Shown piece by piece: positions 6,035-25,529 of a stretch of DNA of 46,261 nt. Position 1 is the first letter of the stretch. Each line of letters opens with the position of its first letter. The notes beneath the pieces are model-generated. The model had not been told where the DNA came from. It saw only the letters and a program-made list of their open reading frames with translations, and made no database searches. A program made the position numbers and the translations under genes. This DNA comes from Planctomycetota bacterium (lineage in GTDB: Bacteria > Planctomycetota > UBA1135 > GCA-002686595). The DNA is taken from contig JALWOP010000355.1 of the NCBI GenBank assembly GCA_027083445.1, positions 1-46,261 on the forward strand, given 5' to 3'.

Positions 6035-7534
6035 TCAGTCCACGAGTCTCGTCTCACCGATGGCCTGTTCCATCGCGGCGACCTCATCATCGTCCAACTC
6101 GGCGAAGAGCCCGCGCTTTCTGGCCGAGAGCCGGCCGTTATTCTCGAGGCAGATGCGTAAGAAGAGTTCGAGGCGCCGATCGGGCATGTCGACGATGTTT
6201 CGCAGCGCGCGCCAGGCCCGGTCGAATCGGTCGAGGAACTGGAGTTCGCCGATGATGTCGACCTCGATGGTCCGCTCGATGGCACTGTAGAGGTACTCAG
6301 CGACCCGAGTCCCGTCGAAGTACCGGTAGTGGCGCGCCGTATCCCCCTGAACGATGAGGTCGCCATCGTCGCGCAGTTCGTACTCAATACACTCCATCAG
6401 AGGAAGCGAAAACGATTCGAGCGCGGCGTCGTACGATGCCCGATCGGCCAGCATGACGGCGGACACGGGCAGGACGAGCCCCGGCAGGGTGAACCCCGTG
6501 CGCGTGAGAACGTGGTGGATCAGGTATCGATGCAACCGGCCATTGCCGTCGTCGAATGGGTGCACGAAGACGAACCCGAATCCGATGAGGGCAGCTTGAA
6601 CGACGGGATCGATCTCGGAACCTCGGAGCCGCTCACAAGAGGCGAGCCAGCCGTCCATGAGATCCTCGACATCCCCAGGCTTGGGCGGGACGAAGTGGAC
6701 GCGCTCACGATAGCCGACGAGTGTCTCCCCGACGTAGTTCTGGTCCGTTCGGTACCCGTCCCGCGCGTAACGCGGGTCCAAGATGGCGCGCTGGATCTCG
6801 ACGAGCCGCGCCTTGTCCAAGGGCTCCCCCATATCGGCGGCGCGCAGTGCTCGGACAAATCGACGCGTGCGATGTTCGTCCGGTCGTTCGCGTTCGATCT
6901 CGAAAGTCGACTTGGTCTCCTTGAGATAGAGGAACTGAGCCGCCCGCTGAACGAGGGCTGGATCCCAGTCCGTCACCGTCGCCCTCAATCGACTTGCGAG
7001 TTCACGGTCGCGAAAGGAATCGAGCGCGTCGGTCCGGTAGACCGTCGGGCAGAAGGATGGGGTGCCGAGAAGGTTGTTGCGGACACGGTGACGTGAACTC
7101 GGAGTTCCCTGCGCAGTGAACTGCTGTGCCCCATCGAGGGCGTCGACATAGGCAACCGTCGGCGCATCCTCGACATCGAGCGTTCGGCCAGTCAGCCACT
7201 CGTACAGGAACCAGGCGCGCCGTGCGTACTTGCCGGTCGGTTTCGAACGCACCCACGCCGCCAATCTCGCCGGCTCGATGACCTCAAAGGCTGCGGACAG
7301 GACTTCGAGGTTCACCCCGTCGTACTTCAGGGCGAATGCGAGTTGTGAGACCGGATCCGTGCCGGGCGCGTACGAGGGAGGCAGGTGTTGGATCGTTCCC
7401 GCCGGGGAGGTCTCGATGACCTTGGCTCCCCTCGAACGGATGCGCGTCCCCCGTCGGGGGGGGAGTGTCACCAGTCCCAGGTCCTCGATCAGGGCCAGGT
7501 AGCCTGCGGGCCGGGAGTCGGTCGGTTGATCCAT
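6035..7534 (-). CDS. Fic-domain protein (probable AMP transferase)
   Basis: 499 residues from the ATG at 7534. The Fic active-site motif HPFDDGNGRLHR is intact, with the catalytic His at about residue 325 and the phosphate-binding Gly-Asn-Gly-Arg. Fic enzymes usually move AMP from ATP onto a Ser/Thr/Tyr of a target protein; some transfer UMP or phosphocholine. The N-terminal domain (KYARRAWFLYEWLTG) is common in Fic proteins of this length, and the C-terminal 100 residues may hold a helix-turn-helix or target-binding region. I could not identify the autoinhibitory S/TxxxE[GN] helix with confidence. A GTG at 7588 is in frame, but it lies inside one copy of the duplicated operator-like element, which argues for 7534. 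No antitoxin-like partner is adjacent. Flanked by the 21-bp direct repeats. Confidence 0.92.
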   Translation of the reverse strand: MDQPTDSRPAGYLALIEDLGLVTLPPRRGTRIRSRGAKVIETSPAGTIQHLPPSYAPGTDPVSQLAFALKYDGVNLEVLSAAFEVIEPARLAAWVRSKPTGKYARRAWFLYEWLTGRTLDVEDAPTVAYVDALDGAQQFTAQGTPSSRHRVRNNLLGTPSFCPTVYRTDALDSFRDRELASRLRATVTDWDPALVQRAAQFLYLKETKSTFEIERERPDEHRTRRFVRALRAADMGEPLDKARLVEIQRAILDPRYARDGYRTDQNYVGETLVGYRERVHFVPPKPGDVEDLMDGWLASCERLRGSEIDPVVQAALIGFGFVFVHPFDDGNGRLHRYLIHHVLTRTGFTLPGLVLPVSAVMLADRASYDAALESFSLPLMECIEYELRDDGDLIVQGDTARHYRYFDGTRVAEYLYSAIERTIEVDIIGELQFLDRFDRAWRALRNIVDMPDRRLELFLRICLENNGRLSARKRGLFAELDDDEVAAMEQAIGETRLVD

Positions 7535-7577
7535 CGGAGATGCGTCTCGTTGCGGGACTGTCGGGCAGGCTCGACGG

Positions 7578-7596
7578 GCTTCGAACACGTTCAGCA
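7578..7596 (-). promoter_or_regulatory. Operator-like repeat A upstream of Fic gene
   Basis: Nineteen bases (GCTTCGAACACGTTCAGCA on the plus strand) match 17 of 19 with 7628-7646, 50 bases away. The core GAACACGTTC is a near-palindrome. It sits just ahead of the Fic start, where a repressor would act. Confidence 0.5.
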
Positions 7597-7627
7597 GGGG
7601 CCCGATTGCTTGAGAATCGCTACTAGA

Positions 7628-7646
7628 GCTTCGAATACCTTCAGCA
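7628..7646 (-). promoter_or_regulatory. Operator-like repeat B upstream of Fic gene
   Basis: Second copy (GCTTCGAATACCTTCAGCA), with inverted halves GAA-TACC-TTC. The 50-base spacing is close to five helical turns, so two bound dimers would face the same side of the DNA. Confidence 0.5.
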
Positions 7647-7859
7647 TAGCCCGCTGATCTTCAAAAACACTCCCCCGTCCACCATATCCCTATCCACCCC
7701 CCCCCGCGCCGACGACTCTTCCGCGTCCAGCGCTTCCTCCGGCGCCTTCTGCCGCGAGCGCGGCGTGGGGACATGGGCGCTCGGAAAGGCCGCGCGCAGC
7801 CACCGCCCCACGCAAGAGGCGCGTGCCAGTGACGCCCCGTCGAGGTGACCCACCTCGGA

Positions 7860-14560: not shown

Positions 14561-15262
14561 TCAGGAGGCGCGGGTGGCGGGCTCGAACGAATCTGCTACG
14601 AGACGGTAGCCCCTGCCGACGACGGTGTCGATCGGGGAGCTTCTGCTCGAGCGGGTCAACTTGCGCCGCAGCCGCGCCACGAGAACGTCGACCAGGTTTG
14701 TGCCCGGATCGTGGGTCGTCTTCCAAACCTTCTCGAGAAGCTCGCTGCGGCTGAAGGTTTCCCCCGGGCGCTCCGCAAGGGTGCGGAGAAAATCAAACTC
14801 GAGGGGACTCACCTCCAGCGTGTGGTCGGCGAAGGTGATGGTTCGGCGGCTCAAGTCGAGGTGCAGGTCCCCCAGGTGCAGGGTGGGCAGGGTCCGCTGG
14901 CGGCGAAGGATGGCTGTACTACGGGCGTACAACTCGGCAAACTCGAAGGGAAGGCCGAGATAGTCGTCGGCGCCGGCCTCCAAAGCTCGGACGCACTCCT
15001 CGGTGGAAGGGTGGGCAGAAAGGATGATGACCGGAGTCGTGAGGTCCTGTTCCCGCACTTCTCGCAGCAGGGCGAGGTCGGGCGAACCCTCGAGTTCAGC
15101 GGCCAAGAAGAGCAGATCGAAGGGGGCTTGGGGCTTCTCGCTGAGGAAACCGCGCGCCTCCGCCGCAGTCGTGCTTACGCGGCACTCCGCTCCGACCGTC
15201 GCGAGATCGCGCTGGAGGCGGTTGCGGGTCTGGGGGTCACCGTCAACTAGAAGGACGCGCAT
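14561..15262 (-). CDS. OmpR-type atypical response regulator lacking the phospho-acceptor Asp
   Basis: 233 residues: receiver domain (1-120) plus winged-helix DNA-binding domain (about 130-225, with LEVSPLEFDFLRTLAERPG, FSRSELLEKVW, VDVLVARLRRKL and VVGRGYRLV, all canonical for OmpR/PhoB). In the receiver, the phospho-acceptor position reads LLFLAAEL, so Ala54 replaces Asp, and the conserved Lys near the end is Leu104 (DDYLGLPFE instead of the usual KPF). The acidic pair (VDGDP) and Ser82 remain. It therefore cannot be phosphorylated in the standard way and is expected to act constitutively or through another signal. No histidine kinase is adjacent. Divergent from the candidate selenoprotein gene. 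Confidence 0.95.
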   Translation of the reverse strand: MRVLLVDGDPQTRNRLQRDLATVGAECRVSTTAAEARGFLSEKPQAPFDLLFLAAELEGSPDLALLREVREQDLTTPVIILSAHPSTEECVRALEAGADDYLGLPFEFAELYARSTAILRRQRTLPTLHLGDLHLDLSRRTITFADHTLEVSPLEFDFLRTLAERPGETFSRSELLEKVWKTTHDPGTNLVDVLVARLRRKLTRSSRSSPIDTVVGRGYRLVADSFEPATRAS

Positions 15263-15378: not shown

Positions 15379-15400
15379 GCTACAGACCCATCTCTGTAGC
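15379..15400 (+). promoter_or_regulatory. 8-bp perfect hairpin directly before the selenoprotein-candidate start
   Basis: GCTACAGA (15379-15386) and TCTGTAGC (15393-15400) enclose six bases and end one base before the ATG at 15402. The ribosome binding region lies inside the hairpin, so it could control translation; a terminator role is less likely because no gene ends just upstream on this strand. Confidence 0.5.
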
Positions 15401-15401
15401 C

Positions 15402-15872
15402 ATGACCATGAAACGCCTCCTTCTCCCCCTGATCCTCCTGGCCGGCTGCGCCTCCACGCCGCCACCGCCCACCGTTTCTTTGCCGGAGAGCGCGGAGACC
15501 CTGGATGGTGGCCGGGTTCAGCTCGCCGGACGACCGGTCGCGCTGGTCTTCTGGCAGAGCTGGTGAAGAGGTTGCCTTCAAGAAGCGCCCCTGGTCCAGG
15601 AGGCGTACCGAACCTATGGAGAACGGCTGCCCATCCTGGGGGTCGTCGCCGGAGCCGACGGGAAGGTGGACGAGAGCGCGCTGCGTTTCACGATCGCCAA
15701 GTTGGGTCTCACCTACCCACAGATTCGAGACCGAGACGGACTCCTCACCGAGTTGCTCTCCGGCCGCAGCCTGCCGACCGTGGCGGTCCTGGACAGCGAA
15801 GGCCATGTGCGCTATTGGGGTCACGACCTGCCGGACTTCGAAGATCCGGCCTTCGAAGACCTGATGCGCTAA
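15402..15872 (+). CDS. Thioredoxin/TlpA-like lipoprotein, candidate selenoprotein (in-frame TGA)
   Basis: 156 residues if the TGA at 15564-15566 is read as selenocysteine. Start ATG 15402 or 15408 gives a lipoprotein signal ending LLAGC. The body is thioredoxin-like: VALVFWQSW, then TGA, then RGCLQEAPLVQ, matching the TlpA pattern F-W-x-x-W-C-x-x-C with the first Cys replaced by the TGA codon (U-R-G-C). The same frame then runs 102 codons without interruption to TAA at 15872, with YPQIRDRDG, the cis-Pro segment RSLPTVAVLD and GHVRYWG, all typical of TlpA/AhpC-TSA relatives. A stem-loop follows at 15586-15605. It would be a membrane-anchored periplasmic thiol/selenol redox protein. The alternative is a nonsense mutation at the catalytic Cys. 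No sel genes are in this window. Confidence 0.8.
15564..15605 (+). promoter_or_regulatory. Candidate bacterial SECIS (TGA plus downstream stem-loop)
   Basis: After the TGA (15564-15566) and 19 spacer bases comes an 8-bp stem: CGCC-CCTG (15586-15593), loop GTC, CAGG (15597-15600), a bulged A at 15601, then GGCG (15602-15605). The apex reads GGUC, as in the loop of the E. coli fdhF element, and lies about 27-30 bases after the TGA, within the range known for bacterial SECIS elements. Fold judged by eye. Confidence 0.6.
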
Positions 15873-15913: not shown

Positions 15914-17107
15914 TCACTGGGTGACGTTCATGCGAATGGCTAGCCAGGGGGTCGCGCCGTAATTGCGGCAGGCACAGGCCACATCCATGTCCCCATCCCC
16001 GTCCCAGTCTCCGCCTAGAGCAGCCATGGGTTGCAGGTTGATCGGATACTGACCCGTCTCCTCGAAGACGGCCTGTCCGAGGTTGCGGTAGACATGCACC
16101 TGGCTTCCGTCGAGGGCGACGATGTCAGGAGAGCCATCTTGGTTCATGTCGCCGACCACGGTGGAACCATCGAACGCGGCCCCGTACTTGCCACCTGTGC
16201 TGAAGCTGCGGTTGCCGCTGTAGAGGGAGATCCAGAGCCCACCGGTGTAGTTGGGGAACTGGTCCGCGACAGCCGTGGCAAGGTCGAGGTCGCCGTCTCC
16301 GTCCAGGTCGGCCAGGGAGGCGAAGTCGCCTGGGGAGACCGATGTCGCTGAAGACGTGCTGAAAACCGCGGAGCCATCGCCCCACCAGACGCTGGTGGAG
16401 TTGCCCGCCCCCACGATCAGATCCACGTGTCCGTCCCCATCGACATCGGAGCAGGCGATTTCCCGCCCGGCCGTGATCGCGGAGGAGCCCCCTGCGGGGA
16501 TGGTTGCACCGAAGGTGCCGTCACCCTGGCCCAGGTGGGTCGAGACCCCGTAGTGGTTCGAGATGACCGCCAGGTCGAGGATTCCGTCCTCGTTCAGGTC
16601 GGCCGTGGAGACCGCGATGGGAAAGGGACCGTAGGCCTGGATCTCCTGGAGGAAGGTGAACCCGGCGGCGCCGTCGCCCAGGAAGATGTTGACCTTGTAG
16701 TTGGTGTTGCCGTAGAGATCCCATCCAGCTCCCAGCGTGACCGCGAGATCGAGGTTTCCGTCGCTGTTGAAATCTCCCGCAGCCAGGCCCCAGGGGCCTG
16801 GATCGCCGAAGCCCAGGGCGGCATTGAAATCATGGTCATCGTTGAAGCCTCCTAGTCCATCACCAAGGACAACGCAGACTTCGGGTCCAAGGATGCCGCT
16901 GGTGGCCAGGTCGAGGATGCCGTCGGCATTGAAGTCGGCGACTACCATGTCGCGCGGATCCTGGCCCGCGATCTGATAGTAGACGTCGCCTCCAAGCACG
17001 GGAGGAGGGCCGAGGCTCGGGACGCGAGAGGGTGCCGTTGGGAGCTGCGCTCCAGCGCCGGCGCATAGGAGGAGCAGACCTACCGAGGTGTGGGGTCCGT
17101 GTCTCAT
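15914..17107 (-). CDS. Secreted FG-GAP/VCBS repeat protein
   Basis: 397 residues from the ATG at 17107, which overlaps the stop of the upstream gene (ATGA) and gives a signal peptide (MRHGPHTSVGLLLLCAGAGAQ). The mature part is a run of FG-GAP/VCBS units with Asp-rich calcium loops such as DFNADGILDLA, DFNSDGNLDLA, DLNEDGILDLA, DVDGDGHVDLI, DLDGDGDLDLA and DWDGDGDMDVA, predicted to form a beta-propeller as in integrin alpha chains. Probably extracellular or surface bound. Last gene of the cluster that begins with the cytochrome conduit; it converges on the selenoprotein candidate. Confidence 0.9.
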   Translation of the reverse strand: MRHGPHTSVGLLLLCAGAGAQLPTAPSRVPSLGPPPVLGGDVYYQIAGQDPRDMVVADFNADGILDLATSGILGPEVCVVLGDGLGGFNDDHDFNAALGFGDPGPWGLAAGDFNSDGNLDLAVTLGAGWDLYGNTNYKVNIFLGDGAAGFTFLQEIQAYGPFPIAVSTADLNEDGILDLAVISNHYGVSTHLGQGDGTFGATIPAGGSSAITAGREIACSDVDGDGHVDLIVGAGNSTSVWWGDGSAVFSTSSATSVSPGDFASLADLDGDGDLDLATAVADQFPNYTGGLWISLYSGNRSFSTGGKYGAAFDGSTVVGDMNQDGSPDIVALDGSQVHVYRNLGQAVFEETGQYPINLQPMAALGGDWDGDGDMDVACACRNYGATPWLAIRMNVTQ

Positions 17108-18015
17108 TGGAACGTCACTTGAACCGCTGAGGTCATGTTGGAACCCGAGCCGCATGGGCTACCGTTGGGATCCCGGTACCAGGCCTGGAAGTAGCGCGTC
17201 TCACCGGCGGCCCAGCCACCCTTGGTGCGCAGTCCCGGCCCGAACACAGCCGTGCCCGAGGCATCGGGGACGTTGATCTCGAGCCGGATGATCGAGCCGC
17301 CGACACAGAGGAGTCCATCCCCCAGGGGGCTGCCCAGGCCGAAGTTGTTCGGCTGGGTGCCGACGAAGAGCAGGGCCGGCTGGCCGGGGAGCAGGTTCGT
17401 CGCGCTGAAGGTCAGGTCATCCGTGAGCACACTGGCGGACCCGGACGGGATCAACCAGGTACCTTGACCCGAGGAGTTGGCGCAGCCGAGTCCCGGGTCG
17501 GCATCGTTCCCGCAGGGGCAACCCGTTCCCGTCCCATCGCCCGCGCAGAAGGGCAAGAAGGGGGATGTGCGCGCGGCTTGTCCCCCCAGCATGTGTCCCT
17601 GGCGGTTGATACCTGCCGCCTCGATCTCGAACTTGCTCAGCACGACGTCCACTGGAGTCTGGCCGTCCGGGGAGAGGGGGGCGGTGAACTTGATCTGCAT
17701 GCTCACCCCCCAGTCGTGCCAGTTCCCGGGCAGATCGATGTCGATCTGAGTGGTATCGAAGGTCCAGGTGAGGCCCATCCCATCCCCATACCAGGGGAGG
17801 GTGAGGGAGGTGAAGGTACCGCTGCCGTTGGCGAAATCTCCGTTGGTGTAGGTCCACTCGAAGGTGCCCTGCATGAGCTGGGGGCTCTCCCAGGGGTGGG
17901 TGATGTCGGGGTCGAGCCAAACATCCTGGAGCTCGTAGGTAATGGTCATCGTCTGGCCCAGGGCGAGGGGGGCGGCGAGGAGGGCCAGGAGAGAGGCAAT
18001 CGCAGGAGTTCTCAT
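17104..18015 (-). CDS. Secreted protein with C-terminal Cys/Gly module
   Basis: 303 residues; the ATG at 18015 gives a clear signal peptide (RTPAIASLLALLAAPLALG). Residues to about 155 are a beta-rich domain (TITYELQDVWLDPD, FEWTYTNGDFANGSGTF) of unknown type. The rest is a modular domain: Cys-rich entry (FCAGDGTGTGCPCGNDADPG), a beta sandwich (LPGQPALLFVGTQP) and the ending FQAWYRDPNGSPCGSGSNM ... VQVTFQ. The same module begins the protein at 28565, and a relative appears at the right edge of the window. Likely a surface or secretion-related module of this lineage. Its stop overlaps the FG-GAP gene. Confidence 0.85.
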   Translation of the reverse strand: MRTPAIASLLALLAAPLALGQTMTITYELQDVWLDPDITHPWESPQLMQGTFEWTYTNGDFANGSGTFTSLTLPWYGDGMGLTWTFDTTQIDIDLPGNWHDWGVSMQIKFTAPLSPDGQTPVDVVLSKFEIEAAGINRQGHMLGGQAARTSPFLPFCAGDGTGTGCPCGNDADPGLGCANSSGQGTWLIPSGSASVLTDDLTFSATNLLPGQPALLFVGTQPNNFGLGSPLGDGLLCVGGSIIRLEINVPDASGTAVFGPGLRTKGGWAAGETRYFQAWYRDPNGSPCGSGSNMTSAVQVTFQ

Positions 18016-18149
18016 ACTTGGACGCGGGGTTGAGGGAGGCAGGACATGGCAGGAATGCAAGGTTCATGCCCAGCCACCGAAGGCTCGAGGGGGCCCGTTT
18101 CGCGAGGAGACTGTCCGATTGGTGGACACACGTCTACAACGTGGGCAGC

Positions 18150-19472
18150 CTACTCCTTGCCGTCAGGATGGCAGTTGTAGCAGGCCATGGTGTCATAAAC
18201 ATATCCGTTCACCTCGTCGTGCTTGTCGTCCATCTTGCTCTTGGTGTGGGCGTGGCAGTCGGTACAGGTGAAGACCGAGAAGTTGCCCGGCACCAGATGG
18301 CACTCGCTGCACGAGATGTCCTTGTGCTTGCCGGAGTCGATCGGGAAGTCGTGGTCGAAGGAGCCGCCGTACCAGGTGGTCGTCGAGTGGCAACCCTCGC
18401 ACTCGAAGGGGAACCCGAGAGCCTCGTGGTCGGGGTCGGTCGTCCCTTGGTATTCGGCAAGGTGACAGTCGACGCAGGGTTGGGAGATCCAACTGTGGTC
18501 GAAGCCGGCCCCCTGCCAGTGTTGCGTGCCATGGCATAGCTCGCAGGTGGTGGGAACGCCCAGGGCGACGTGGTCGGGATCGTTCGCGCTCTGGTAGTCG
18601 GAGAGATGGCAGTCGATGCAGGGTTGAGTGATCCAACCATGATCGAAGCGCGCTCCCTGCCAGGTCCAGGTTCCGTGACAGCGCTCACAGTCGGTCGGGT
18701 ATCCCTGGGCCTGGTGATTGGCCGCCGCCAGGTACTGGGCCTCGTGGCACCCGAAGCAGAGAGTTGGCAGCCCGGTGAACTGACCACCTACATGGCAGGC
18801 CTCGCAGTCGATGACGCCGTGCTTCCCGGTGAGGGGGAAGGTGGAGTGGTTGAACCCCGCGCCCCCCCAAGTCGTGGAGATGTGACAGCGGTCGCAGTTC
18901 GAGGTCCAGCCCTGAGCAAGGTGGTTGGGCTCCGTGGCTCGTGCCAGGTCCTCGCTATGGCAGGTGATGCAGTCGGGATCCAGGCCGGTGAAACGTCCAA
19001 CGGGTGCACCCTCATGGCATCGCCAGCAGGGAACGGCGGCATGGGCTCCAACCAAGGGGAAGCGCGTGCGTTCATGGTCCGCAATGGCCCCGCGTGGCCG
19101 CCAATCGTCCTGTCCATGGCAATCGGTGCAGTTCTGCCCGAGCTGCCCGAGGTGCACATCCTCGTGACACCCTGCGCAGCCCCGAGCTGCAAAGAGATCG
19201 ACCGGGCCGCGGTCGTTGTGGCAACGCAGGCACTCCGCCTGGGCGTGGGCTCCTTCGAGGGCCACGCCGGTCTCTGCCAAGTGGTCGAAGCTGAAGTCCT
19301 CGCGCAGTTGGTTCCAGCTCCCCTCCTTGTGGCAGAGGGTGCAGTCTGCCGGAAAGGTGTCATGGGGGACGACCGGGCCGCGTTCGGCATACCAGCCGTT
19401 GACGGGAACGTCTGCGGAGCGCGAGCAGCCGGCGGCCAGGAGGGAGAGGAATAGGAGTGTTCGCGGGCTCAT
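18150..19472 (-). CDS. 17-haem c-type cytochrome lipoprotein
   Basis: 440 residues with 17 CxxCH haem-binding motifs counted by eye, from CTLCH to CYNCH, and a lipoprotein signal (LLFLSLLAAGC). Many extra His residues (for example FDHSWISQ) can serve as second axial ligands. Two 48-residue units with two haems each (18414-18557 and 18558-18701) are near copies, followed by a partial third. As a lipoprotein encoded right after the outer-membrane barrel (TGATG overlap at 19472), it is a candidate for the outer face of an electron conduit, like OmcA/MtrC-type or OmbB/OmcB-type partners, though it is not obviously homologous to them. Confidence 0.95.
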   Translation of the reverse strand: MSPRTLLFLSLLAAGCSRSADVPVNGWYAERGPVVPHDTFPADCTLCHKEGSWNQLREDFSFDHLAETGVALEGAHAQAECLRCHNDRGPVDLFAARGCAGCHEDVHLGQLGQNCTDCHGQDDWRPRGAIADHERTRFPLVGAHAAVPCWRCHEGAPVGRFTGLDPDCITCHSEDLARATEPNHLAQGWTSNCDRCHISTTWGGAGFNHSTFPLTGKHGVIDCEACHVGGQFTGLPTLCFGCHEAQYLAAANHQAQGYPTDCERCHGTWTWQGARFDHGWITQPCIDCHLSDYQSANDPDHVALGVPTTCELCHGTQHWQGAGFDHSWISQPCVDCHLAEYQGTTDPDHEALGFPFECEGCHSTTTWYGGSFDHDFPIDSGKHKDISCSECHLVPGNFSVFTCTDCHAHTKSKMDDKHDEVNGYVYDTMACYNCHPDGKE

Positions 19473-21097
19473 CAGAAACCTCGCTGGAGATAGAAGCCAA
19501 TCACGGTCGTGTCCTGCTCGTCACCGAAGCGGCGTTCCGCATGGATGGAAAGGTCCCAGCCCCCCGCCGTACGCATGTCCCAGCGGACGCGCAAGCGGTC
19601 CTGGTTGAGAACCTCCTGATCACCGAAGAAATCGTGGTTCGTGTGCTGTCCGAGATCGAAATCGACCCGCCAGCTCCCGACAGATGCTGGGGCTCCAAAG
19701 GAGAACCGGCAACCGACCACATCGCTGAAGCGCCCCTCCTGGGTGAAAAGGGCCAGGCTCGACCGGCTGCGATCGAGGAATAGATCCCTTGCATCCGCAC
19801 GCAGCTCGACCCCTGTTCCCGAGGCGGTCTCATCATTCCAACGATCGAGACGCGCTGAGAGGCGCAGGTCACTGGTCACCTGCCGCCAACCGGATAGGGA
19901 GACGCGATCGCTGCGGTCGTTCGCAAGCTCCTGCTCGGTCACGTCTGAGAACTCGTTGCGCAGGAGCTGGGGAATGCGGAAGCGTGAGAGGCTGAGATTC
20001 AGACCCGCATCCGTTCCGATACGCCGGCCCAGGCCCGCGATGAACTGGGTCAACTCGGGCCCCGAGCCCTTGGCCGTATCTTCGCTGCCGTACAGATCGA
20101 TCCAAGCACCGGCCCAGGCGTTCCACTCCGAGCGCGGGTACCAGCGCACGTTGCCAAGCAAGAGGTCCCGGTCCGCGCGCCCCCCGTGCCAGGTCTTCTG
20201 ATACCCCCCGGTCATCGAGAGTTCCTCATGCTCCCCGCGGGTGTGGCGGTAGAAAGCCGATGTCTGGAAGTCGGAGCCGCTGCTGAAAGACTCGTTGGGC
20301 TCTGGCAAAAAGCCGACGCTGGCGCCGTAGCGATCCCCGTTTGGGAGGCGCTCGATCATCTGCACTCCGTCAAGGACGCCGAACTCGGGCACGTCTTTTT
20401 GTAAGAAACGGCCGACCTCAAAGCGGCGCGGGCGCTCCCGATCCCCGCCCCAGGCGTAGGAGAGACGATCGATGCGTAGGAAAGCGTCGGTCGAACCCTG
20501 GCCGTCGGGGGTATCGGAACGCTCGACTCCGTACTCGATATCGAGTTGAAACTCACCCCCGCGCCCCCAGGGGTTCCGTCCCCGCAGATCGAGCCCGCTG
20601 CGGGCGAAGAGGAAAGTGTCCCCGAAGCGTCCGTCGTCGGTCCATTCCGCGAAGTTCGACCAGCGCCCGGACCAGTGGGATTCCCGCTCCTCGGGGCTGG
20701 GTGGGGTGACCTTGGCGAGGAGGGGCACGTCGCTGTCCCAGGGGCCCTCCGGGTTGCTCCAAGCGGGGTGTTCCGGCTGGGCTGAGGGAGTGGGCTCACG
20801 ATCCACGGGAAGATCGATTTCAGCGGGGGTACCCGGGAGGATTCCCGAGGGATCGCCGTCGAGCTCGACCTGACACGAACGCTCGTCGACTGCGATCACC
20901 CGACCGCTGAGAGTCGTTCCTCCGAGGGGCAGAATGCGCACAGGATCCCCGGGCAGAATGGCACTCGCGGCACCCCGGTCGAGGTGAACCTCCGAGCCGA
21001 CGATGGCCGTCACCCGCGCTTCGAGGGTTTGCACCCCGCCCTCATTCTGTCCAAACAGCGGCGCGGTGAGCCACAGCAGCACCAACCAATACTTCAA
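19472..21097 (-). CDS. Outer-membrane beta-barrel, probable conduit porin
   Basis: 541 residues from a TTG at 21097 that overlaps the stop of the 26-haem gene (TTGA). Signal peptide KYWLVLLWLTAPLFGQ. Residues 25-95 form a small beta domain (EVHLDRGAASAILPGDPVRIL), then a Pro-rich linker, then from about 150 a barrel with alternating polar/aromatic strands (FQLDIEYGVERSD, YGASVGFLPEPN, ELSMTGGYQKTW, FYLQRGF) ending in Phe, the usual C-terminal signal for outer-membrane barrels. Lying between two multihaem cytochrome genes, it fits the porin of a porin-cytochrome conduit, as MtrB or PioB do. Direct homology to those cannot be judged by eye. Confidence 0.85.
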   Translation of the reverse strand: MKYWLVLLWLTAPLFGQNEGGVQTLEARVTAIVGSEVHLDRGAASAILPGDPVRILPLGGTTLSGRVIAVDERSCQVELDGDPSGILPGTPAEIDLPVDREPTPSAQPEHPAWSNPEGPWDSDVPLLAKVTPPSPEERESHWSGRWSNFAEWTDDGRFGDTFLFARSGLDLRGRNPWGRGGEFQLDIEYGVERSDTPDGQGSTDAFLRIDRLSYAWGGDRERPRRFEVGRFLQKDVPEFGVLDGVQMIERLPNGDRYGASVGFLPEPNESFSSGSDFQTSAFYRHTRGEHEELSMTGGYQKTWHGGRADRDLLLGNVRWYPRSEWNAWAGAWIDLYGSEDTAKGSGPELTQFIAGLGRRIGTDAGLNLSLSRFRIPQLLRNEFSDVTEQELANDRSDRVSLSGWRQVTSDLRLSARLDRWNDETASGTGVELRADARDLFLDRSRSSLALFTQEGRFSDVVGCRFSFGAPASVGSWRVDFDLGQHTNHDFFGDQEVLNQDRLRVRWDMRTAGGWDLSIHAERRFGDEQDTTVIGFYLQRGF

Positions 21098-23286
21098 CGG
21101 GATTCTCCATCACCAAAACCGTGGCAGTCCTTGCAGGACGTGCCCAGGGGTCGATAGCGGACCGCCCGGCCACCGCCAGGCAGGGGCCATTGCCGGTGGC
21201 AGGCGGCACAAGCGAGGTCTCGATGCTCACCGTCCAGATGGAAGCGCGAGCGGTCGTGGTCGAAGCGATCGGCGCTCCAGACTCGAGTCGTCCCGTGGCA
21301 CTCATCGCAGGAACGCTTCTGGAATTGCCCCGCGTGGGGGTCGGCATGACAGTCCGCGCAGCCGGTTCCCAGAGCCTGCTCATAGGTGCGTCCGCGTGCG
21401 TCGGGTACGAGGCGGGCGGCATGGCAGGCGCTGCACGAGGCCTGCGCATGCGCCCCTTCGAGAGCGAAAGACGTCTCGACTCCATGGTCGAAGCCGCGAG
21501 GCAATCTGCGGAAAGAGATCGTGTCGTGGCAGCGAGCACAGTCGCTGCCGAACTCGCCGCGGTGAGCGTCGGTGTGGCAGTCGGCACAGGCACTGCCTCC
21601 GAAGTGGTCGCGCGCGTGGGCGAAGCTGCGCCCGTCGGCCTGCGGCTCCTGGAGCGGCGGGTGGCAGCGCGCGCAGGCAGTCTGGGCATGAGCGCCATCG
21701 AGGCCAAACCCGGTTTCCGAGTGATCGAACGCCCCTACATCGGCGAAGGATTCGGTGTGGTGGCATTCGTCGCAGGTTGCCTCAGAGAAGACTCCCAGGT
21801 GGGGGTCGCTGTGGCACGAGGCGCAGGCACGGGGGTCTCCATCGACTTGGTCGGCGACAAACCCCAGGCTGCGACCGGTGCGAGGGTCCGCCGTCGCACT
21901 GCGTGGATGGCACGCCTCGCAGGCCGCGGTCAGGTGGGCACCATCCAGAGCAAAGCCGGCCCAGCGCTCGTGCAGAGAGGGATCGTCCTCGAATCGCGAG
22001 CAGGCGAAGCTCTGCGCATCGTGACACTGCGCGCAGCTGACGGTAGCGAAGGCTCCACGGTGTGCATCCGCATGGCAGGCGGAACATTCACTGGGGGTTC
22101 CGACGAAGATCGCTGGATCCCCCTTGTGGCACTCCTCGCAGGCCGTCTCTACGTGGGCTCCCACCAGGGCAAAGGCGGTTTCTGCGTGGCTTTCCAGGCC
22201 GAAGGTACAGGGCAGGAAACCATCCTGACTGTGGCAATCGATACAGCTAGAGCGCGGTCGACCAGCGAACTGGCCGGCGTGGGGGTCGTCGTGGCATGCC
22301 GCGCAGTCATCCGCGACACGACCGGGAAAGCGCAAGTCGAACGTGAGCGTGGAGTCGTGACACTCTTCGCACTCGAGGTCGTCGTGGGGGACTTCGAGGG
22401 GGAAACCGGTCCGGGCGTGCTGATCGGGGTCCAAGGAGGCGGGAACCCAGGCTTCGTTGGAGTGGCATTCGGCGCAGCCGTCTTCGGGTGATGCAGTACC
22501 GGCCGCGGCGAATGCGCTTTGGAAGGCAGAGCTGTGTGGCGAGTCGTGGCAGGCCTCACAGGTGCGTTCCGGCGGAGGGTCATGTCCGGCGACGGCCTCC
22601 ACGGAGTACTCGCCACTGTGGCAGTCGGCGCATTCCAGGCCCCCATGGGCTCCATCCAAGGCCAGGCCCCGGTCATGGCGGAAAGCAGTGAGCTCCTCGA
22701 AGGCGCCTTCCTGGCCGTGGCAGTCGGCGCACTCCCGGGCCATGGCGCCTTCATGGGGATCGTCGTGGCAGGTCGAGCAGTCGCGATCCAGGCCCATGAA
22801 GCGCGTGGCATCCTTGGGGAGGATCGGGATCTCCGCCCAGTTGTGGCAGTCGGTGCAGGCGAGTTCCTTGTGGGTTCCCTCGAGTTGATACCCGAGCAGG
22901 GTGTGGTCGAACTGGGTAGAGTCTTCGATACCGGCCAAGGCGAAGCTTCGCGCCGTGATCGGTGCGACGTCATCACCGTGATGTTCGAGGTGGCAAGTGC
23001 GGCAGGTTTCGGCCAGAGTCGAATCGATCAGGGAGCCGTGCAGGCCCTCGCCCGCTTCGATATCCCGGCCGATCTCCGCGTGACAGTCGAAACAGGCGTC
23101 GGCCATGGTCCCGCCGTCCTGTCCATGGCAGCGATCACAACCCTTCCCCCCGGCGAGATCGGTTTCCCGGGCGTGCACACTCGCCAGGGGTCCAGGACTG
23201 GTGCGCTCTAGGTCCTGATTGACCAGATAGAGCACCAGGACGAGGGAGGCGATCCCCACCAAGGTGCCTGCAGAGGCGCGGCGCAT
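21094..23286 (-). CDS. 26-haem c-type cytochrome, signal-anchored
   Basis: 730 residues with 26 CxxCH motifs counted by eye (CDRCH to CKDCH). The N-terminal hydrophobic helix (GTLVGIASLVLVLYLVNQ) lacks a clear cleavage site and may anchor it in the inner membrane. The motifs come in a repeating pattern: 'G-A-H' or 'D-G-A-H' segments (LDGAHGGLECADCH, LDGAHAQTACARCH, LEGAHAQASCSACH) alternate with DPHxGxF segments, pointing to growth by internal duplication. It probably carries electrons across the periplasm between the reductase encoded upstream and the barrel downstream. The start overlaps the reductase stop (TGATG at 23286). Confidence 0.95.
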   Translation of the reverse strand: MRRASAGTLVGIASLVLVLYLVNQDLERTSPGPLASVHARETDLAGGKGCDRCHGQDGGTMADACFDCHAEIGRDIEAGEGLHGSLIDSTLAETCRTCHLEHHGDDVAPITARSFALAGIEDSTQFDHTLLGYQLEGTHKELACTDCHNWAEIPILPKDATRFMGLDRDCSTCHDDPHEGAMARECADCHGQEGAFEELTAFRHDRGLALDGAHGGLECADCHSGEYSVEAVAGHDPPPERTCEACHDSPHSSAFQSAFAAAGTASPEDGCAECHSNEAWVPASLDPDQHARTGFPLEVPHDDLECEECHDSTLTFDLRFPGRVADDCAACHDDPHAGQFAGRPRSSCIDCHSQDGFLPCTFGLESHAETAFALVGAHVETACEECHKGDPAIFVGTPSECSACHADAHRGAFATVSCAQCHDAQSFACSRFEDDPSLHERWAGFALDGAHLTAACEACHPRSATADPRTGRSLGFVADQVDGDPRACASCHSDPHLGVFSEATCDECHHTESFADVGAFDHSETGFGLDGAHAQTACARCHPPLQEPQADGRSFAHARDHFGGSACADCHTDAHRGEFGSDCARCHDTISFRRLPRGFDHGVETSFALEGAHAQASCSACHAARLVPDARGRTYEQALGTGCADCHADPHAGQFQKRSCDECHGTTRVWSADRFDHDRSRFHLDGEHRDLACAACHRQWPLPGGGRAVRYRPLGTSCKDCHGFGDGESR

Positions 23287-25529
23287 CAGGAGCCTCCTCC
23301 GAAGAGTTCCGCGTAGCGAAAAGCGGTCACGACATGGGCGGCGACCAGGAGCACGACCGCCAGAGCGACCCAGCGGTGCAGGTAGCGCCAGCTAGCCATC
23401 AATCCACGCAGCTCTTCATAGTGCGCCGCGGCCAGGGCGGCCCGCGACGCGCGACGCGTGAGTTCGAGGGTGGCTAGCAGTTGATCTTCGGAGAGATCCG
23501 CGCGCCGAGCTTCTTGCTCCAGGCGCCTGCGGATCCGTCGCCTCTCCCGTAAGCCGGCAAGCGCCCCGAGGAGTCCTTTCCAACGCCCTCCCAGGGCCAG
23601 CCGGTCGAGTTCCTCGCGGGCCGCTTGGGCAAAGCCGCGGTGGACGCGGTCCCATTCGGCGCTGATCTCCCGCAGGCGGGCGCGGACCTCCTCCAGGGCC
23701 AGCTCACGTCCGTTGGCGGCGTGTGGGACGTAGGCGTAGAAATAGCGCCCGATGGCACCGGTGACGACGAGTAGGGCCAGGCCCCAGAGGGCATGCCCGC
23801 CGACGGTTTGCAGCGGAGTCAGCGCAGAGTGCAGAAGGGCGATCACGAGGCAGGCGATGCCGGTTGCCACATGCGCGCTCATCCAGCGTTGGAGTGAGCC
23901 CCACGCGAGTGGAATGCGAAGAGAGCGCCGGGCCAAATAGCTGAGGTTGATCACGAGCAGGAGTGCCGCGGCGATTCCGAACGCCAGGCCGACGCCTCGG
24001 CTGGGGCGCAAGAGCGCATGGTCCGGGAGGCTGGCGCGCAGGGCGGGGGCGGCCATGTAGTACTCGCGGAAGATCAGCACCCAGGCCAGCGCGCCCATGA
24101 CCAGGGCAAGGGCGCTACCGAGAGCCGCCAAGAGTCCCTTTCCTCGCCCTGCGAGTTCTGGAAGGGAGTGCGGGTCGACGTCGAAGGAGACCCCGCTACG
24201 TCGCAGGAGCTCCATCGGGGCCTCGCCCCCGGCAAAGATGAAGACCTCGTCGTTGGGCAGCGGTAATCGGGTTTGCTCCTCGCCCACGGTCAACTCGACA
24301 TGGTCGGCGTGGATGGAACGTACCTGGCTCGAGAAGAGAACGACCAAGCGACCGGCCTGAATCGCTTGGGTGATGCGCGCTTCGTTGCGGGCCTTCAGGC
24401 GAAAGAAGCACTCCTTGCGATAGGAGAGGGTGACCTCGTTGCCTTCCTGCTCCGCGAGGCCCAGGGCGGCCTCGATGGCGCTGTCTCCTCCGCCCACGAC
24501 GAGAATGCGCCTCCCGCGGTAGCTCTGTGCGTCGAGGAGGGAGTAGGCCACCTTGGGTAGATCCTCGCCGGGGACCCCGAGCTTGCGTGGCACGCCACGC
24601 CGACCCAGGGCAAGGCAGACCTGCCTGGCTCTCCACTGCACTCCATCGGTGTTGACGCAATAGCTATCGCCGTGGCGCTCGAGACCGAGAAAGCGCGTTC
24701 CGGTCTCGATCGGCAGCTCTTGCTCGGCGGCGACCCGTTCCCAGAGCTCCATCAGCTCCTCCTTGGAATAGGTCGGGCGGTCCAGCCTCCCGGCGAGAGG
24801 AAGGTCGACCGGATGGGTCATCACCAGCTTGCGCCGCGGGTAGCTGGCGACGGTGCCTCCCAGGGTGGCCTGGTCGAGGACGACGAAGCGCAGTCCCTGT
24901 CGCCGCGCCTCGAGCGCGCAGGCGAGGCCGGCTGGACCCGCTCCGACGATGACCAGGTCGAGCTCACTCTTGTCCTGTTCCGGAACCCTGGGGCGCCGTC
25001 CGACCGCGTCGGCCACCGAGCTGCCTTGAGCGATGGCGGTGCGGATCAGGGCGTAGCCGGTCACCTCACCCGCCAGGAAGAGTCCCGGGCTGCCGACCGC
25101 TTCGAGGTCGGGGGTAAGGGCGGGGATGTCGTCACGCTGGGAGAGATCGCCAAGGGTGACGGCCAGGGCCCCCACGGGGCAGGCCTCCGCGCATCGGGCA
25201 TGCCCCACGCAGCGGGCGCCGTGGACCACGAGGGCCTGCCCGTGAACCATTTCGAGCACCCCCTCTTCCGGGCAGGCCTCGACGCACAGTCCGCAGCCGA
25301 TGCAGTGGGCCAGATCGACGACGGGATGCTGCAATCGGGCACGCGCGCTGCCCTGATCGACGGCGCGATAGCGTTCGGCCAGTCCCTCGGCCTGCGCGGC
25401 GAGTCCGACGCGACGCACGATCAGCGCCCCCACCGCTACGGCGAGCAGAAGGGCGATTGCGATCAGAAGGCTTAGGCTCAACCTGAGATCCCCATAGCGG
25501 CCGGTTTGAGCATGGGAATCGCAGGGCAA
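23286..25529 (-). CDS. Membrane reductase: 2x[4Fe-4S]-like, FAD/NAD(P) domain and C-terminal membrane helices
   Basis: 747 residues (TTG at 25529; a TTG at 25481 is possible). Order: a membrane helix (LLIAIALLLAVAVGALIV); a ferredoxin segment with CIGCGLCVEACP and CVGHARCAEACP, the second having His in place of the second Cys; a thioredoxin-reductase-like flavoprotein with FAD motif GAGPAGLACA and NAD(P) motif GGGDSAIEAALG; then four or five membrane helices with paired His (MSAHVATGIACLVIALLHS, RYLHRWVALAVVLLVAAHVV), resembling cytochrome b561/ferric reductase-type haem b helices, with a charged helical loop between. It likely passes electrons between the NAD(P)H pool or ferredoxin and the periplasmic 26-haem cytochrome. 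First gene of the cluster. Confidence 0.9.
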   Translation of the reverse strand: MPCDSHAQTGRYGDLRLSLSLLIAIALLLAVAVGALIVRRVGLAAQAEGLAERYRAVDQGSARARLQHPVVDLAHCIGCGLCVEACPEEGVLEMVHGQALVVHGARCVGHARCAEACPVGALAVTLGDLSQRDDIPALTPDLEAVGSPGLFLAGEVTGYALIRTAIAQGSSVADAVGRRPRVPEQDKSELDLVIVGAGPAGLACALEARRQGLRFVVLDQATLGGTVASYPRRKLVMTHPVDLPLAGRLDRPTYSKEELMELWERVAAEQELPIETGTRFLGLERHGDSYCVNTDGVQWRARQVCLALGRRGVPRKLGVPGEDLPKVAYSLLDAQSYRGRRILVVGGGDSAIEAALGLAEQEGNEVTLSYRKECFFRLKARNEARITQAIQAGRLVVLFSSQVRSIHADHVELTVGEEQTRLPLPNDEVFIFAGGEAPMELLRRSGVSFDVDPHSLPELAGRGKGLLAALGSALALVMGALAWVLIFREYYMAAPALRASLPDHALLRPSRGVGLAFGIAAALLLVINLSYLARRSLRIPLAWGSLQRWMSAHVATGIACLVIALLHSALTPLQTVGGHALWGLALLVVTGAIGRYFYAYVPHAANGRELALEEVRARLREISAEWDRVHRGFAQAAREELDRLALGGRWKGLLGALAGLRERRRIRRRLEQEARRADLSEDQLLATLELTRRASRAALAAAHYEELRGLMASWRYLHRWVALAVVLLVAAHVVTAFRYAELFGGGS

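Follow-up and report, generated by a model that had tools for sequence, protein, structure and literature searches.

A probable selenocysteine form of a TlpA-like lipoprotein encoded near a multihaem cytochrome conduit in Planctomycetota

A 46,261-nucleotide stretch of DNA (hereafter the window), which is contig 355 of a Planctomycetota metagenome-assembled genome (MAG) of 4.79 Mb and 87% completeness, carries on its plus strand a reading frame at 15402-15872 that is interrupted once, by a TGA, at the first position of a W-C-x-x-C redox motif. Does this TGA end or damage a gene, or is it read as selenocysteine (Sec), and what would the resulting protein do among its neighbours? From the sequence alone it had been proposed that the frame encodes a lipid-anchored, TlpA-like selenoprotein beside an electron conduit. 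On the sequence evidence assembled below, we put the probability that the frame is a selenoprotein gene, and not a pseudogene, at about 0.95.

The reading frame, its fold and its redox codon in relatives

Translated from the ATG through the lipobox to the TAA, the frame reads MTMKRLLLPLILLAGC-ASTPP...LVFWQSW-TGA-RGC-LQEAP...SLPTVAVLD...DLMR-TAA, with the TGA at 15564-15566 as its only interruption and zero other stops. The gene would thus specify a TlpA/ResA-type thioredoxin-fold lipoprotein of 156 residues with Sec at residue 55 (an alternative start is the ATG at 15408). The TGA is preceded by 54 codons, as the sequence-only reading had counted, and followed by 101 sense codons and the TAA, where that reading had given 102. 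The family features that it had described on both sides are present: upstream lies a lipobox, L-A-G-C (residues 13-16, 15438-15449), read from the sequence, whose lipidated Cys16 is invariant in a 20-row alignment, and downstream lie the resolving Cys58 of U-R-G-C (15573-15575) and the cis-Pro of the thioredoxin fold, Pro125 (15774-15776), the latter likewise invariant in the 20 rows. The lipidated Cys is followed by Ala, a residue that would permit sorting to the outer membrane.

A profile search with the joined protein bore out the claim of one continuous frame: the Pfam AhpC-TSA family matched residues 35-138, spanning the TGA site, at 4.4e-10, and Redoxin likewise spans the TGA. Since the AhpC-TSA match crosses the TGA, the frame is not a product of chance. 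Ten TGAs in the window are bordered on each side by 40 or more open codons of coding-like composition, and among these the one at 15564-15566 alone stands in a U-x-x-C setting. Family alignments of 15 and 20 members are invariant at W51, W54, the redox column 55, C58, E61, G84, D110, P125 and P144, where column 55 holds exclusively Cys or TGA. The AhpC-TSA/Redoxin-class thioredoxin fold, the C(U)xxC centre, the cis-Pro and the exported, anchored N-terminus place the predicted protein among the TlpA/ResA-type oxidoreductases. An AF2 model built from 20 natural sequences reached a pLDDT of 90.5, and the nearest solved structures to it are ResA (the best PDB match, and first by sequence profile as well), StoA and other extracytoplasmic thiol-disulfide oxidoreductases of this kind, Etrx1/Etrx2 among them.

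Relatives were drawn largely from Planctomycetota genomes, in which the lipoprotein orthologues stand clearly apart: they score 145 bits or more, with a gap below. The sequence-only reading had looked to relatives for the same TGA or a Cys at this codon, and both were found. TGA occupies the identical codon in nine genomes (the window genome, G001, G009, G014, G062, G090, G091, G092 and G194), all of them Planctomycetota; G001 belongs to the same genus as the window genome and G194 to another family of the phylum. In the Cys-type orthologues read at this position the codon is TGC or TGT, and unrelated stops or frameshifts were seen in none of the relatives' orthologues within this stretch. In a tree in which several forks are weakly supported, eight rows, that of the window among them, group together: seven Sec forms and G010, a Cys form nested with the Sec forms G090-G092 of one genus. 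In the same tree G009, a Sec form, is placed among Cys forms. G194, another Sec form, likewise has Cys forms around it, and its family mate G166 has Cys. As a Cys form lies within the Sec clade, Sec and Cys interchange; the placements of G010, G009 and G194/G166 indicate that the two have been exchanged several times at the redox codon of the lipoprotein.

The operon of relatives and the neighbourhood of the window gene

In relatives the TlpA-type gene is the third of an operon with the order DUF4266-DUF3570-TlpA-ApbE, confirmed with Pfam. In nearly all of the relatives' loci examined, wherever the contig reaches far enough, DUF3570 and ApbE stand on either side of the gene, and DUF4266 is there in most; an OmpR-type response regulator often adjoins the operon, in several cases together with a histidine kinase. 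A QSGASGD-like motif ([ST]GA[ST]) is present in all eight DUF3570s checked, and the five DUF4266s checked each have a C-terminal CGC plus one residue. Several relatives (L092 about 7640-7660, L095 about 15215, L104 about 2200, L147, L148, L149) have a TTAC-N6-GTAA motif, likely a response-regulator operator, ahead of the operon in the region between the regulator or conduit and DUF4266. This motif was not found in the window. A perfect 8-bp inverted repeat, GCTACAGA-N6-TCTGTAGC (15379-15400), lies in the divergent region shared with the response regulator, with its end one base short of the ATG, and is possibly an operator or an mRNA/start-site hairpin.

The window locus is arranged differently from that of the sister genome G001. 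The interval from a TrkA-C gene to the conduit is occupied in G001 by the four-gene operon; in the window it contains an OmpR-type response regulator (14561-15262, minus strand), the Sec-TlpA gene, and the genes of an FG-GAP protein and of an unknown protein. The regulator is divergent from the selenoprotein gene and homologous to the one beside the operon in relatives; the FG-GAP repeat protein and the unknown secreted protein (15914-18060) take the exact place of the operon ApbE in the sister genome. Of the DUF3570/ApbE cluster, the thioredoxin-like gene and the response regulator alone remain. No remnants of DUF3570, DUF4266 or ApbE were found around the window gene, and a same-genus query did not find DUF3570 in the genome itself (MAG 87% complete). 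The ApbE homologues of this genome show 33-39% identity, except for a fragment of about 50% at the edge of contig C352 (L166:1-370). This fragment, a C-terminal end of ApbE and a possible candidate for the lost partner, has about 50% identity to the operon ApbEs, compared with about 40% to the other copies of the genome and with the 63-76% that the operon ApbEs share among themselves; its unassembled 5' neighbours could hold the missing partners.

Further along, on the minus strand, lies the conduit. It comprises a multihaem c-type cytochrome with 17 CxxCH motifs and a lipoprotein-like signal (18150-19472), a second with 26 CxxCH motifs (21094-23286), and between them a conserved 541-aa protein (19472-21097) that has no Pfam or NCBIfam match and is, from its position, probably an outer-membrane barrel. 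The presumed electron input is the product of 23286-25529, which combines a ferredoxin, a YpdA-like flavin oxidoreductase and a weak ferric-reductase-like membrane domain. Such a fusion of 4Fe-4S ferredoxin, YpdA-like and ferric-reductase-like parts is an unusual conduit input module, common to G001 and G009. Elsewhere in the window, a 517-aa Fic/DOC-domain protein is encoded at 6035-7588 on the minus strand. Two relatives have a cluster homologous to window 18150-25529 (ferredoxin/YpdA-like oxidoreductase, 26-CxxCH cytochrome, probable barrel, 17-CxxCH cytochrome) beside the operon, which is oriented towards it in G001 and divergently from it in G009. Taken with the window, these two genomes make the association of the TlpA gene with an electron conduit conserved in three genomes. 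The adjacency claimed by the sequence-only reading is real but indirect, since it runs through a conserved operon that two relatives have beside the conduit and that the window locus lacks.

The protein would most likely work at the cell envelope as a thiol/selenol carrier of electrons. By analogy with thioredoxin chemistry, Sec55 would attack the disulfide of a partner and Cys58 would resolve the mixed selenenyl-sulfide. In the ancestral setting the protein would have been the thioredoxin-like member of the DUF4266-DUF3570-TlpA-ApbE operon, giving electrons to, or taking them from, DUF4266 through its CxC pair and DUF3570 through its FMN. In the window genome it probably serves the adjoining multihaem-cytochrome conduit, by reducing disulfides of the haem sites or of the conduit, or else is a remnant. 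The locus lacks the operon partners; what the protein has available there are the conduit cytochromes or the cysteines of their haem sites. We infer the membrane side, the redox partners and the direction of electron flow, and give the envelope electron-relay role roughly even odds. A bolder form of it, in which Sec tunes a DUF3570/ApbE-type envelope chain and the Sec-thioredoxin has here left the flavoprotein and been joined to the multihaem conduit instead, is improbable as it stands; if true, nature would have exchanged flavin for haem while keeping the selenium relay.

The fold and profile matches, headed by ResA and StoA, also suit a ResA/CcmG-like protein that would keep the CxxCH cysteines of the adjoining multihaem cytochromes reduced for haem attachment, with no part in flavin-linked transfer. 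The 17- and 26-CxxCH proteins of the adjoining cluster and the adjacency in three genomes agree with such a role, which we regard as a tentative alternative: most relatives have the DUF3570/ApbE setting, with the cytochrome cluster not found within the stretch examined, and resemblance to ResA is generic among TlpA proteins.

A slightly weaker case, on balance an unlikely one, can be made for a genuine selenoprotein gene that has lost its partners and persists as a functionally orphaned remnant under relaxed constraint. In the tree (several forks weakly supported), the branch of the window protein measures 0.70, about twice the 0.36 of its sister G001, and dN of the post-TGA part against G014 is 0.54 for the window and 0.33 for G001. 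Given this rate, about twice that of the sister, and a locus that lacks the operon partners, the window protein may be re-used or decaying. An orphan would nevertheless have kept its lipobox, redox centre, cis-Pro and frame intact, its divergent response regulator in place, and its post-TGA dN below dS (0.47 vs 0.95, window vs G001), and the ApbE fragment at the edge of C352 means that the partners may lie in unassembled DNA. Either the conduit alone is the partner of the window protein, or constraint is relaxed, or the partners are in the missing 13% of the genome. An envelope relay, a ResA-like cytochrome role and partial decay are not mutually exclusive.

Probable selenocysteine decoding in the genome

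The MAG contains the complete machinery for Sec insertion: tRNA-Sec (75.6 bits), selA (474.5), selB (320.9) and selD (341.0) are all present, as the sequence-only reading would have it. The genes for tRNA-Sec, SelA and SelD lie together on contig C365 and selB on C453. The selD gene is itself interrupted by TGA (L108 about 6700-7700, G000:C365), with its Sec codon in ACAGUAAKMP, a Gly-U-Ala-Ala-Lys loop. Across the genomes compared, tRNA-Sec scores above the family cut-off in 57 of 61.

Besides the window gene, half of the AhpC/TSA-family matches of the MAG (seven of 14) are interrupted in frame by a TGA where the catalytic Cys would stand (C137:4470, C329:48903, C405:8050, C55:10695, C329:31016, C72:8870 and C98:6141; loci L153, L154, L155, L157, L158, L160 and L161). 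Their motifs are peroxiredoxin-like TPTU and PGUT and TlpA-like WUGPC. These seven genes amount to a large selenoproteome in a planctomycete; Planctomycetota appear as heavy selenoprotein users, whose AhpC/TSA-type TGA genes are probably annotated as truncated fragments.

We infer that SelB and tRNA-Sec decode the UGA at 15564-15566 as selenocysteine, which would yield an exported, lipid-anchored TlpA/ResA-type protein with a U-R-G-C centre. That the locus encodes a full-length, Sec-containing thioredoxin-fold lipoprotein, the core of the explanation preferred here, is highly probable. The best local hairpin, GCGCC-CCUG-(GUC)-CAGG-A-GGCGU (15585-15606, plus strand), has its loop 27 nt past the UGA. 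It satisfies the published bSECIS rule of a hairpin 16-37 nt after the UGA with a G within the first two loop positions (PMC13188914), yet so do 109 of 150 random window positions, and the rule is not discriminating in GC-rich DNA. Measured against synonymous-codon shuffles, the energy of the G[GU]-loop hairpin gave p=0.058 for the window, 0.017 for G009, 0.042 for G001 and 0.083 for G014, a trend that is missing in G090-G092. A search for a column-conserved SECIS across the Sec forms gave an essentially empty RNAalifold consensus (-0.8 kcal/mol, p=0.20 vs synonymous shuffles), and an Rfam scan of the window returned tRNA-Arg only. Since bSECIS elements vary between genes, these results neither prove nor refute a selenoprotein; the hairpin is a suggestive SECIS candidate, not significant on its own.

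The absence of the operon partners around the gene and its long branch are also what would be expected of a recent pseudogene after loss of context, or of a sequencing error, in which a Cys codon was mutated or misread to TGA and the protein truncated. This reading is very improbable and, because the TGA is conserved, largely refuted: eight other genomes have the same TGA in an otherwise open frame, 101 codons stay open past it with the cis-Pro kept and dN (0.47) below dS (0.95) against G001, and the genome encodes complete Sec machinery. An altered genetic code, in which TGA would be an ordinary sense codon and the site Cys or Trp, was rejected as extremely improbable even though TGA occurs inside several genes of the genome, since in the cases inspected the TGAs sit at catalytic Cys positions (U-x-x-C, TP-T-U, PG-U-T) and in the Gly-U-x-x-K loop of SelD, other genes terminate in TGA, and standard Sec machinery is present.

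Significance and nearest known systems

A Sec-decoded member would add a selenium form of the thioredoxin-like part to a widespread, poorly understood flavin-based envelope electron-transfer system, and the relatives point to a single catalytic position that has switched between Cys and Sec repeatedly inside one phylum of bacteria. With a Cys form (G010) and Sec forms (G090-G092) in one genus, the benefit of Sec in extracytoplasmic electron transfer can be put to a clean test on natural orthologues. The type is less new than the sequence-only reading had supposed, given that UxxC AhpC-TSA/TlpA selenoproteins have long been catalogued (PMC13188914) and structures of the lipid-anchored Etrx1/Etrx2 are available. 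The literature searched yielded no mention of a Sec-containing DUF3570/ApbE operon member or of its repeated switching between Cys and Sec in Planctomycetota, and the link of Sec to the DUF3570/ApbE outer-surface electron-transfer set is new as far as found.

ResA, StoA and CcmG resemble the window protein in fold and in the position of CxxC (TM 0.66-0.68 to the query, 20-23% identity), but they have Cys and a membrane helix where the window protein has Sec and a lipobox; against the ResA NCBIfam model NF002854 it scores 44.4 bits, below the cut-off of 170. Etrx1 and Etrx2 of Streptococcus pneumoniae, known from solved structures, share with it a surface-exposed, lipid-anchored TlpA-type thioredoxin fold. 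They have Cys rather than Sec, a Gram-positive host and a different gene context. The UGC-containing TlpA proteins (NCBIfam WAxxUGC_long, NF041054) are likewise Sec-containing and TlpA-like, with the motif UGC in place of URGC (UxxC), and the window protein reaches 23.9 bits against their cut-off of 300. Closer are two selenoprotein families of PMC13188914 (Table 1), the Prx-like thiol:disulfide oxidoreductases (PF00578, UxxC/UxxU) and the thiol-disulfide isomerase-like proteins (cd02966, UxxC), which have a thioredoxin-fold AhpC-TSA/TlpA domain with Sec first in UxxC, as does the window protein; these families are broad and defined by domain and motif, whereas the window protein represents a lipid-anchored subfamily tied to the DUF3570/ApbE operon.

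That operon corresponds in turn to the flavinylation 'DsbD systems' of PMC8238504, which consist of ApbE, a flavinylated DUF3570, a thioredoxin-like protein and DUF4266; in the published model the thioredoxin-like protein would trade electrons with DUF4266 and the flavinylated DUF3570. The relatives' operon has the same four components, including the DUF3570 flavinylation motif and the DUF4266 CxC, while the window locus is without three of the four. For the thioredoxin-like member PMC8238504 gives PF13899, and its text leaves selenoproteins unmentioned; the member described here instead matches PF00578/PF08534 and takes a Sec form in nine genomes.
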